DNA of 43,702 nt from an uncultured Nitrospira sp. (lineage in GTDB: Bacteria; Nitrospirota; Nitrospiria; Nitrospirales; Nitrospiraceae). A program made the translations under genes and the position numbers. The notes under the pieces were generated by a model. That model worked only from the letters and a program-made list of their open reading frames with translations. It was not told the DNA's origin and did no database searches. Each line of letters opens with the position of its first letter. The first letter of the stretch is position 1. The stretch lies in NCBI GenBank assembly GCA_902500995.1, contig CABVSR010000018.1, forward strand, positions 1 through 43,702, in the 5' to 3' direction. This document shows, one piece after another, positions 24,593-27,443 of the stretch.

Positions 24593-25054
24593 TCATATCC
24601 ATTTCCGGACGCGAGCTCGATACTCCGCAAATGCCCGACCGAAGAGGCGCAGGAGCGCTCGCTCCTCCGGTTCGATCTGGAAACGATTCATATACAGCAC
24701 GAAGCCGGGAAGCACCACATAGGCCGGCACGTTCGACAGATATATGCCCCAACCGAGCAGGATCCACAAGAAGCCCAGATACATCGGATTGCGTGTCCAT
24801 CGATAGATGCCGCTCACCACCAGCGCAGACGACGATTCCGGCTTCATGGGATTGACGGTGGTCTTGGCCATTCGAAATGAAACGATACCCATTCCAGCTA
24901 CTGCCAAGCCGATGACAACCGCGCCTGTTGCGCAGATGAGTCGCGCGGGAAAGTCAAACCCGAAGGCCGGAGCCGCCCAGGCGATCAGCCACATGCTCCC
25001 GCCTGCCAGCAGCACGACAACGACAGGAGGAACCTTTAACTCCAAGCCCCGCAT
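24593..25054 (-). CDS. Isoprenylcysteine carboxyl methyltransferase-like membrane protein
   Basis: 153 aa from ATG 25054 (GGAAG seven bases upstream; a TTG seven codons earlier is less likely). Helices near 7-30, 38-60 and 85-115. The C-terminal catalytic half has SGIYRWTRNPMYLGFLW and EPEERALLRLFG..EYRARVRKWI, the RNPxYxG and E-E...Y-x3-V-R-W signature of ICMT/PEMT-type SAM-dependent methyltransferases. Bacterial members have varied or unknown substrates. It follows the metallothionein-like gene on the same strand, separated by a hairpin. Confidence 0.85.
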   Translation of the reverse strand: MRGLELKVPPVVVVLLAGGSMWLIAWAAPAFGFDFPARLICATGAVVIGLAVAGMGIVSFRMAKTTVNPMKPESSSALVVSGIYRWTRNPMYLGFLWILLGWGIYLSNVPAYVVLPGFVLYMNRFQIEPEERALLRLFGRAFAEYRARVRKWI

Positions 25055-25187
25055 AGGATCACTTCCGCCGAGCAAGCCCCATCGTGCCGCCTCTCCTCTC
25101 GACTTCCCGATCCCCTATGACCGCATGATACGCGAGCGGCTAAGTCGTCACAATCCGGCTCACAGCCATTCACCCGGGACAATCCGA

Positions 25188-25228: not shown

Positions 25229-25390
25229 CTAACGTTTGGAAGCTCGCTTGCGGCAGCCACATTGACAGTCGATCTGCACGCAGCGGCAGGCGTCGGCCTG
25301 GCATTCGCACGAACAGCCCGAGCAGTCGCATGTTCCGCAACAATTGCTCTTCGCGAGAGCCGGTGAAGTGGTGAGTTTTTCTTTTGCCAT
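25229..25390 (-). CDS. Metallothionein-like cysteine-rich protein (53 aa)
   Basis: ATG 25390 with AGGAG seven bases upstream. After a 16-residue polar N-terminus come 12 cysteines in about 31 residues, mainly as C-x-C pairs (CDC, CSCEC, CRC, CQCGC), then a basic tail RKRASKR. There is no aromatic residue and no His. Such density without other features is the mark of a metal-thiolate cluster protein, probably cytosolic storage or buffering of Zn, Cu or Cd. I cannot match it to a named bacterial metallothionein (SmtA or MymT). It faces an ECF sigma gene with a Cys-rich tail across 106 bases, which suggests a metal or redox response. Confidence 0.8.
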   Translation of the reverse strand: MAKEKLTTSPALAKSNCCGTCDCSGCSCECQADACRCVQIDCQCGCRKRASKR

Positions 25391-25440
25391 GGTCTGTCTC
25401 CTTTGATCCGCCAGCACGTGATTGCGCTGTCACAGAGGCT

Positions 25441-25465
25441 GACGCAGCGCCCCCGAAAACCTTAC
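25441..25465 (-). promoter_or_regulatory. ECF-type promoter signature for the metallothionein-like gene
   Basis: Minus strand has GTAAGG (25465-25460), a 15-base spacer and CGTC (25444-25441). The GTAA...CGTC form is seen for several ECF sigma groups. Predicted start near 25433, 43 bases before ATG 25390. Its assignment to the adjacent sigma factor is inference. Confidence 0.5.
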
Positions 25466-25496
25466 AGTCCCGGACAACGCATGGTAAGCTGCCTTC

Positions 25497-26084
25497 ATGA
25501 AGATTGAATCTGAGCCATCCACAGCACTCTCACCGGAGGCCGTTGCGCAACTGGTGAAGGGGCATAAACAGTTTCTGGCCTTCCTGGAGCGGCGGGTGGA
25601 ATCAAGAGCCGTCGCGGAAGACATTCTTCAAACGGCGTTCACGCGTGGTTTGGAGCGCGGGGCCGGTGTGGACGATGAAAAAGTCGTGGCTTGGTTCTAT
25701 CGCGTGCTCCGCAACGCGGTGATCGACCACTACCGGCAGAGGTCCATCGCCGAGCGAGCGATGGAAGCCTGGGCAAGGGAATTTCCGGATGCGCAGGAGC
25801 CGGAGGCGGAACTGCAGCAGGAAATCTGCCAATGCCTGTCGAGCTTGCTGGAAACTCTCAAACCGGAATATCGACAAGCCCTGCAGATCGTGGATCTGCA
25901 AGAAGGCACCCTCAAAGATCTCGCGCAACAATCAGGCATCACGGCCGAGAATGCGGCCGTCCGGGTCCATCGGGCCAGGGCGGCGCTGCGTCGCCGGATC
26001 GAACAGGCCTGCGGCACCTGCTCCGTGCATGGCTGCCTGGATTGTTCGTGCGAGAGTTCTAGCGGATCGAAGTGCGGAGGGTGA
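25497..26084 (+). CDS. ECF sigma factor with cysteine-rich C-terminal tail
   Basis: 195 aa. Region 2 (about 24-85: FLAFLERRVESR...AWFYRVLRNAVIDHYRQR) and region 4 (about 113-168: LKPEYRQALQIVDL...ENAAVRVHRARAALRRRI) are typical of extracytoplasmic-function sigma-70 proteins. After region 4 a 25-residue tail holds C172, C175, H178, C180, C183, C185 and C193. A Cys-rich tail that senses metal directly is established for CorE-type ECF factors of Myxococcus; similarity here is by layout only. No anti-sigma gene is next to it. Divergent from the metallothionein-like gene. Confidence 0.88.
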   Translation: MKIESEPSTALSPEAVAQLVKGHKQFLAFLERRVESRAVAEDILQTAFTRGLERGAGVDDEKVVAWFYRVLRNAVIDHYRQRSIAERAMEAWAREFPDAQEPEAELQQEICQCLSSLLETLKPEYRQALQIVDLQEGTLKDLAQQSGITAENAAVRVHRARAALRRRIEQACGTCSVHGCLDCSCESSSGSKCGG

Positions 26085-26134: not shown

Positions 26135-26418
26135 TTAGCGATGAGTTCCGCTTATGCGCATACCGTCGCCGATACTGCGGTTGTTGTCCTTGGCTTCGAT
26201 GACGGCGAGGGGAATGCTCGGCTTATAGTAGAGAATGTAGTCGGCGAACTTGGCCTTGCCGCGGGTGACCAATTTCCCTCGAACAATGATTCTGCCCTTG
26301 GTGAAGTACACCTGCTCGCGAATTTGCATCAATCATCCCAGCCGGCGTTTCTCACGGCCGGGGTGATGAGCTTGCTGCAGATGTCGCGTTCGCTCAGGGA
26401 CTTCTTATCGAGACTCAT
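26135..26418 (-). pseudogene. hsdR: Remnant of type I restriction subunit HsdR (frameshifted, truncated)
   Basis: Two pieces of an HsdR N-terminus in different frames. The first, from ATG 26418, gives SLSERDICSKLITPAVRNAGWDD and stops at 26329. The second continues from about 26332 with REQVYFTKGRIIVRGK and ADYILYYK...AVIEAKDNNRSIGDGM, the well-conserved N-terminal nuclease region with PDDEXK-type E-A-K. Homology ends near 26158, so ~90 of some 800 residues remain. The start overlaps the end of the DUF1016 gene (ATGA), which shows the original operon. The break lies about 70 bases from the sigma factor stop. Confidence 0.8.
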
Positions 26419-27443
26419 TCCCCGTCCTCCAGCAGTTTCGCGATCTCTGCGGGACTGGGCAATTGGCCTTTGAGCTCTTTGGGCAACCGTTTCACCACCT
26501 GATACGTCGCCACGCCGATAGGCTTCTTGGCCGAATGCAGCGCATACTCCACAATCGTCCGCTTTTTTTCCTTGCAGAGGATGATGCCGATCGACGGCTG
26601 CTCGCCTTTTTCCCGCACCTGCCGGTCGAGGGCCGTGAGGTAAAATTGCATCTTGCCGACGAACTCGGGCTGGAACTCGCCGATCTTCAATTCGACAGCC
26701 ACCAGACATCTCAGACGACGATGATAGAGAAGGAGATCGATGAAATATTCCTTGTCTTCGACCTCCAATCGATATTGGCTGCCGATAAAGGCGAAGCGCC
26801 CGCCCATGGCACGAAGGAAAGTTTCAATCCGTGCGATCAATGCGCGTTCGAGTTCGCGCTCGGAATGCTCCTCGCCCAGATCGAGAAAATCGAAGGTGTA
26901 CTCATCCTTTACCGCCAATTTCGCCTGCGCGCGCAACGCCGGAGTGAGAACCTTGTCGAAGTTGGTTTGGCCGAGGAGCGTCTTCTCGTAGGTTTGGTTT
27001 TCGATCTGATGGATCAGGACATTCTTAGCCCATCCGAACTTCCTCGTCATGCGGATGTAGAATTCGCGTTCAAGCGGATCCGTGCAGCGTTCAAGAATGA
27101 TGAGGTTGTGGCTCCAAGCAATTTCTCGCACCAGTGGTGCGAGTTTTTCGAATGAGACATACGCCTCAAACAAGCTTTTCATTCGCCAGAGATTGGACGC
27201 CGAAAAACCTCCCACACCTGGAAAGTCCACCTGCAGATCGGCTGCCAATCGCTCCACAACAGCCTTTCCCCATGACTTTCCTTCCTGCCGCTTGACGATC
27301 ATCCCCCCGATGTCCCAATAGAGACCGACTAATTCCTTGTTCACGGCCCGCAACGCAGCATACTGAGCGGTACGGACGCGCTCCTTCACCTCGGCCAACA
27401 GGGAGATATACTCTTCTGGAAGCGATGGTTTGGTATTGCTCAT
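26415..27443 (-). CDS. DUF1016 (YhcG-type) PDDEXK nuclease-domain protein
   Basis: 342 aa. N-terminal DUF1016_N region (EYISLLAEVKERVRTAQYAALRAVNKELVGLYWDIGGMI...) with SASNLWRMKSLFEAY and WSHNLIILERC, then the PDDEXK domain: FAFIGSQYRLEVEDKEYFIDLLLYHRRLRCLVAVELK, giving the D...E-x-K catalytic set. Such genes are common inside type I restriction loci as an extra nuclease, and here hsdR follows immediately. No hsdM or hsdS is present in the window, so this may be an orphan remainder. Reading frame intact and full length. Confidence 0.88.
   Translation of the reverse strand: MSNTKPSLPEEYISLLAEVKERVRTAQYAALRAVNKELVGLYWDIGGMIVKRQEGKSWGKAVVERLAADLQVDFPGVGGFSASNLWRMKSLFEAYVSFEKLAPLVREIAWSHNLIILERCTDPLEREFYIRMTRKFGWAKNVLIHQIENQTYEKTLLGQTNFDKVLTPALRAQAKLAVKDEYTFDFLDLGEEHSERELERALIARIETFLRAMGGRFAFIGSQYRLEVEDKEYFIDLLLYHRRLRCLVAVELKIGEFQPEFVGKMQFYLTALDRQVREKGEQPSIGIILCKEKKRTIVEYALHSAKKPIGVATYQVVKRLPKELKGQLPSPAEIAKLLEDGE

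Follow-up and report, generated by a model that had tools for sequence, protein, structure and literature searches.

A candidate two-gene metal homeostat in Nitrospira: a CorE-like sigma factor facing a metallothionein-like gene

The window analysed here is a 43,702-nt stretch of DNA from an uncultured Nitrospira sp. (assembly GCA_902500995.1, contig CABVSR010000018.1, positions 1 to 43,702 of the forward strand), whose genome amounts to 3.97 Mb. It contains a unit of about 850 bp made up of two divergent genes whose start codons lie 106 bp apart. The features of the locus are as follows:

24593..25075, minus strand: ICMT/PEMT-family membrane methyltransferase (Pfam PF04191, over cut-off), 3' of the Cys-rich gene
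25229..25390, minus strand: gene for a 12-Cys metallothionein-like protein of 53 aa, divergent from the sigma gene
25398..25404, minus strand: ribosome-binding site AAAGGAG of the Cys-rich gene, 7 nt 5' of the ATG and near-invariant in the 19-genome alignment
25441..25466, minus strand: predicted CorE-group promoter element TGTAAGGTTTTCGGGGGCGCTGCGTC (TGTAAN-N16-CGTC), with boxes conserved in 19 genomes
25497..26084, plus strand: CorE-like ECF sigma factor gene (195 aa: sigma2, linker, sigma4, Cys-rich tail)
25827..25835, plus strand: CxC motif C111-Q-C113 in the sigma2-sigma4 linker, invariant in orthologue alignment A2
26010..26081, plus strand: C-terminal Cys-rich domain (CRD), C172-x2-C175-x4-C180-x2-C183-x-C185-x7-C193, with His178

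An earlier reading made from the sequence only had described a Cys-tailed ECF sigma factor with no adjacent anti-sigma gene, facing a 53-aa protein with 12 Cys, and these elements of the description held. By Pfam, the genes flanking the pair encode the ICMT/PEMT-family methyltransferase, an HsdR-like fragment and a YhcG nuclease; no anti-sigma gene was found next to the sigma gene, either among the neighbour families in the window or in the flanks in relatives, and no copper gene adjoins the pair. The methyltransferase gene is absent or shortened in many genomes that retain the pair, and is probably an optional neighbour outside the two-gene unit. An ICMT-family methyltransferase also lies near CRD sigma genes on alphaproteobacterial plasmids (L137:7408-8064; L138:7667-8323); it could be a companion that recurs at metal loci, or its presence there could be chance. 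On the other side, 3' of the sigma gene, window positions 26135-27443 hold the HsdR-N-like fragment and a complete gene for the YhcG-type nuclease. This insert is absent beside the pair in most relatives, and the nuclease gene lies near the same block in G014 (L187).

The sigma factor matches Sigma70_r2 and Sigma70_r4_2 above the Pfam cut-offs and consists of sigma2 and sigma4 only, followed by a short Cys-rich C-terminal extension, CGTCSVHGCLDCSCESSSGSKCGG, with six Cys and one His. In CorE, the tail Cys are at positions 181, 184, 189, 192, 194 and 206 (PMC3107203), and the spacing of the first five is that of C172, C175, C180, C183 and C185 here (C-x2-C-x4-C-x2-C-x-C). The four tail Cys that are invariant in the CorE group (CorE 181, 184, 192 and 194) correspond to C172, C175, C183 and C185, and these are likewise invariant in alignment A2. 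The second hallmark of CorE-like factors, a CxC in the sigma2-sigma4 linker (PMC8999054), had been passed over in the sequence-only reading; it is present as C111-Q-C113, and it occurs in 27/27 CRD sigmas and in 0/4 SigZ-like controls. Moreover, in a tree of 31 proteins comprising the 27 CRD sigmas and four SigZ-like relatives (Myxococcus xanthus CorE is not among them), all the CRD sigmas form one clade with 100/100 support, apart from the SigZ-like factors. This clade takes in plasmid-borne sigmas of Phenylobacterium zucineum and Roseobacter litoralis, species named in the CorE paper (PMC3107203). With tail spacing, linker CxC, missing anti-sigma gene and position in the clade all pointing the same way, the likeness to CorE suspected earlier has become firmer: by every hallmark that its sequence carries, the factor is CorE-like (former ECF44, part of ECF238). 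Membership of SigZ (TIGR02959) was considered and rejected: this family is the best NCBIfam match of the sigma body, but it scores 105 bits against a cut-off of 169, and the SigZ-like controls have neither a CRD nor the linker CxC. An AlphaFold2 model of the protein gave a confident body and a tail without confident structure (pLDDT <50), so the model allows no statement on the metal site.

The start of the Cys-rich gene was counted from the ATG at 25390, since the conserved AAAGGAG fits this codon; an in-frame GTG farther 5' would give 62 aa. The protein contains 23% Cys and six CxC steps. Across 19 orthologues all 12 Cys are invariant and His, Phe, Trp and Tyr are absent, and the non-Cys positions have a mean pairwise identity of 69%. 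In the orthologue alignment, differences are 2.4-2.7 times more frequent at third codon positions than at the first two; by this measure the gene is under purifying selection. Comparison with Pfam and NCBIfam profiles returned no match up to E = 1, and searches of the PDB and of plasmids with the protein gave nothing meaningful. The CxC steps and the lack of room for a hydrophobic core are in keeping with a metallothionein. Its size, its content and conservation of Cys and its lack of aromatic residues make the 53-aa protein metallothionein-like, and it would be expected to bind metal.

How strictly the two genes go together was analysed in 29 Nitrospira genomes and, for the phylum, in 296 genomes. 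An orthologue of the sigma factor (84-92% identity) is encoded in 20 of the 29, every one of which has the Cys-rich gene beside it, and the remaining nine have neither gene (Fisher p = 1e-7, with the 29 genomes treated as independent of kinship). Note that among the 20 pairs one Cys-rich copy is cut off by the contig end at residue 20, and one sigma gene carries a frameshift. The Cys-rich gene is present in one copy per genome, always adjoining the sigma gene, and the 296 phylum genomes hold no clear homologue of it outside the genus, only two weak, partial matches. The co-occurrence that the sequence-only reading had asked to be tested was thus borne out, and among the sampled genomes the pairing is obligate.

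The pair sits in a syntenic block, with SbcCD on one side and relE-like, Nudix and RlmL genes on the other, and adjacency alone could therefore be the result of vertical inheritance. This raises the alternative that the two genes are mere neighbours, the Cys-rich gene being constitutive or otherwise regulated and the sigma factor acting elsewhere, which the synteny of the chromosomal block in most genomes would fit. Against this, genome G005 has kept the SbcCD and relE-like-Nudix-RlmL flanks and lacks both genes, the pair being missing as a unit. In addition, the gap between the two genes is constant at 105-106 bp in 19 genomes, while the outer distances vary by up to kilobases. This joint absence and the constant intergenic region are the only points that argue beyond mere vertical inheritance of the neighbourhood. 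That the unit exceeds chance is argued by the conservation of both genes and of the element between them in about 20 genomes, and by the codon-position bias in the Cys-rich gene. A pair accompanied by SbcCD was also seen in a contig binned as Bryobacterales, Acidobacteriota (L061), at 83-89% identity to Nitrospira (62% for the Cys-rich protein). Since the sigma factor and SbcD reach 87-89% identity, this contig is most likely mis-binned Nitrospira.

Upstream of the Cys-rich gene, at 25465-25441 on the minus strand, lies GTAAGG-N15-CGTC, which equals TGTAAN-N16-CGTC. The sequence-only reading had called this an element of the ECF-promoter type and had proposed aligning upstream regions to look for a shared motif. 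When the intergenic regions of 19 genomes were aligned, the -35 box ACTGTAAGGTTT was near-invariant (mean column identity 0.996) and the -10 box CGTC invariant (identity 1.0), the sole deviation in the boxes being one G-to-T in one genome, whereas the spacer drifts (identity 0.73) at a fixed length. In the published CorE site a conserved G lies 16-18 residues from the AAC of the -35 (PMC3107203), and the spacing of the window element agrees with this. A search of the intergenic region for sigma-70-like promoters found none.

The same signature recurs beside CorE-like factors of other lineages. Across 107.7 kb from 12 plasmid loci with a CRD sigma, most of them alphaproteobacterial and one from Candidatus Manganitrophus, 20 matches to TGTAA[ACG]-N16-CGTC were counted where 0.25 would be expected, although some of the loci are related and the matches are not all independent. 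These loci contain the same pair of boxes at no other gap from 10 to 22, and three loci of CRD-less relatives contain no TGTAA[ACG]-N16-CGTC at all. Within the Nitrospirota, sister loci carry the element 5' of a CopZ-like gene (L045), 5' of a membrane protein gene that is DUF4396-like by eye (L043), and just 3' of the sigma gene (L129). For a third CRD sigma of Nitrospira, six loci were read, and each has TGTAAT-N16-CGTC a short way downstream of the sigma gene. Through the sharply spaced TGTAAN-N16-CGTC, likely targets can be assigned to CorE-like factors in several lineages, and TGTAAGG-N15-CGTC has the marks of a conserved, group-specific promoter.

With regard to that third factor (L192:4880-5533, L195:5230-5946, L132:8169-8867 and relatives), we observed that its tail, CGPCCERNCRNC[MT]C, is of the CorE2 type, and that a near-identical element, TGTAATGCTAGAGGGTCCTCAACGTC, lies within about 600 bp downstream, with a heavy-metal RND pump adjoining.

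Across the whole genome that carries the window (G000), TGTAAV-N16-CGTC is not enriched: it has 10 matches, against 32 for the reversed pattern. At genome scale the motif alone is accordingly weak evidence, and by the same result the sigma factor may act chiefly, or solely, on the Cys-rich gene. The scan brought no wider regulon to light, and one recurrent element, TGTAACACAGGTGAAAAATTTGCGTC, was left unassigned because it also occurs in genomes without the sigma factor. This element is nearly unchanged in most Nitrospira genomes, with or without the sigma gene (G009:C1:1239906-1239931, G017:C203:7519-7544).

The missing genome-wide enrichment speaks for the alternative that the genes are mere neighbours. 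That alternative has to accommodate two hexamer-like boxes that are kept as the spacer drifts, a signature and an exact spacing that match the CorE group, an intergenic region in which no sigma-70-like promoter was found, and the absence of the pair as a unit in G005; we regard it as very improbable. Because the two genes are jointly present or absent, the boxes are conserved, and the signature is enriched beside other CorE-like sigmas, the sigma factor very probably transcribes the Cys-rich gene.

We consider it likely that the locus is a two-gene metal homeostat, in which the CorE-type sigma factor switches on the metallothionein-like gene via TGTAAGG-N15-CGTC. The sensor would be the CorE-type tail of the sigma factor itself together with the linker CxC, in place of an anti-sigma factor. 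A rise in cytoplasmic metal (copper most likely, Cd or Zn being alternatives) would lead to its binding by the Cys of tail and linker, and the metal-loaded sigma factor, with RNA polymerase, would recognise TGTAAGG-N15-CGTC and transcribe the divergent gene. The 12-Cys protein would then accumulate and tie up the metal, and once metal is drawn off the sigma tail the response would be switched off. From CorE we infer that both proteins bind metal, that metal activates rather than represses, and that there is such feedback. An extension of this would be a closed loop in which the sensor tail and the thionein, as the sole product of the sigma factor, compete for the same metal, the thionein buffering the metal and also stripping the tail and so resetting the sigma factor; the CGTC-led Cys array of the thionein may derive from the tail or mimic it. 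We find this extension doubtful.

A different role for the small protein would be that of a regulator: a soluble anti-sigma factor that binds the sigma tail, or a donor that passes metal to it. In both proteins a cluster of Cys does follow CGTC (CGTCSVHGCLDCSC and CGTCDCSGCSC), the pairing is strictly one-to-one, and no second conserved promoter site was found. But CorE needs no partner protein, and when overexpressed without copper it is inactive (PMC3107203); no such partner lies at any other CRD sigma locus examined, and the Cys-rich protein, with nearly a quarter of its residues Cys and no aromatic residue, looks like a chelator. A regulatory role is, in our judgement, very unlikely. We give even less credence to a thiol or redox stress unit, whose sigma tail would sense oxidation and whose Cys-rich protein would be a thiol buffer: although Cys clusters can sense redox, and CorE tells apart the redox states of copper (PMC3107203), the members that have been studied respond to metals, for which they require the tail Cys, and the sister factors adjoin metal transporters.

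Returning to the metal homeostat, the metal itself can be approached through the Cys code of the tail. In PMC9023288, CorE, which responds to copper, is given as C-x4-C-x2-C-x-C and CorE2, which responds to Cd and Zn, as CC-x3-C-x2-C-x-C, the extra Cys of CorE2 setting the Cd/Zn specificity. The tail of the window factor follows the CorE pattern (C175-x4-C180-x2-C183-x-C185), with Ser or Ala after C175 in all full-tail orthologues, and C180, which corresponds to the CorE activation Cys C189, is kept in every orthologue with a complete tail. Sister CorE-type sigmas in the Nitrospirota have as neighbours P-type ATPases with scores above the copper-class threshold, as well as a CopZ-like protein, and the CRD sigma on the Candidatus Manganitrophus plasmid lies near an annotated copper ATPase. 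The CorE2-type Nitrospira paralogue lies near a heavy-metal RND pump that is CusA-like by eye and could also handle copper, so the Cys code gets no clean confirmation from the neighbours. On the strength of this code and of the CopA-linked sister factors, copper is the metal that we favour, with some reserve.

The same circuit could serve another metal, with a tail that answers Zn, Cd or another soft metal and a 12-Cys protein that is a Zn/Cd thionein. CorE2 of Myxococcus, whose tail is much alike, answers to Cd and Zn (PMC8999054, PMC9023288), the pair has no adjoining copper gene, and NmtA and other known bacterial metallothioneins are linked to Cd and Zn (PMC8790569). This is an alternative of lower probability that deserves to be kept in mind; it has against it that the window tail is without the extra Cys of CorE2, that C180 is retained throughout the complete-tail orthologues, and that CopA and CopZ are the neighbours of sister CorE-type factors in this lineage.

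The literature searched contains no report of a CorE-like factor linked to a metallothionein, nor a description of the Nitrospira pair, and no small Cys-rich neighbour was seen at the other CRD sigma loci examined. The sigma type is already known: Candidatus Nitrospira defluvii NIDE1902 is one of the 21 CRD sigma factors listed in the 2011 CorE paper (PMC3107203), which makes the novelty of the sigma factor smaller. A search of the N. defluvii genome (FP929003; L062/G024) gave a single CRD sigma, at the same locus and with the same Cys-rich gene adjoining; the other relative in that genome is SigZ-like. Since this is the one CRD sigma that the search gave, and since NIDE1902 was the sole Nitrospira member listed in 2011, NIDE1902 is almost certainly the orthologue of the window factor. 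The papers found list its sigma tail alone and do not mention the Cys-rich neighbour or the promoter. Of the novelty claimed for the unit, what stands is the metallothionein-like target, which would be the new element. A complete sensor-to-buffer circuit would here be contained in two small genes, which could find use as a simple reporter module for metal and which offer a testable metal-tolerance unit for Nitrospira, a genus of key nitrite oxidisers that is difficult to manipulate. As a separate observation, Rhodococcus plasmids (L141:4739-4915, L143:4658-4834) carry a 58-aa Cys-rich ORF (CCSTERQAICCDQSEKSTCCGP...GGCGCQ) in convergent orientation to a SigZ-like sigma gene, possibly a second kind of pairing between a sigma factor and a Cys-rich protein.

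Among known systems, the closest is CorE of M. xanthus (MXAN_3426, copper-dependent, former ECF44, grouped with ECF238), which has the same spacing of the first five tail Cys, the linker CxC, no anti-sigma neighbour, and an AA-rich -35 with 16-18 nt to the conserved -10 G. The two differ in the sixth Cys, 8 residues past the fifth in the window factor and 12 in CorE, and in the -35, which is TGTAAGG at the window locus and AAC-containing in CorE. They also differ in their targets: CorE acts on a multicopper oxidase and a P-type ATPase, whereas the sole target linked to the window factor is the metallothionein-like gene. CorE2 of M. xanthus has the same architecture and is metal-activated, but its tail has the CC-x3-C for Cd/Zn, the extra Cys of which is missing from the window factor and present in another Nitrospira paralogue. 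The bacterial metallothioneins SmtA/NmtA/BmtA and MymT of Mycobacterium tuberculosis resemble the 53-aa protein in being small, Cys-rich and without aromatic residues, in single copy, and expected cytosolic chelators; the protein has no Pfam match to a known metallothionein family, and its ligands would all be Cys, with no His. Finally, the metallothionein genes so far described in bacteria are controlled by repressors (SmtB/AzuR; PMC8790569) that sense the metal and then release them, whereas the Nitrospira gene is apparently under the control of an activating, metal-sensing sigma factor.
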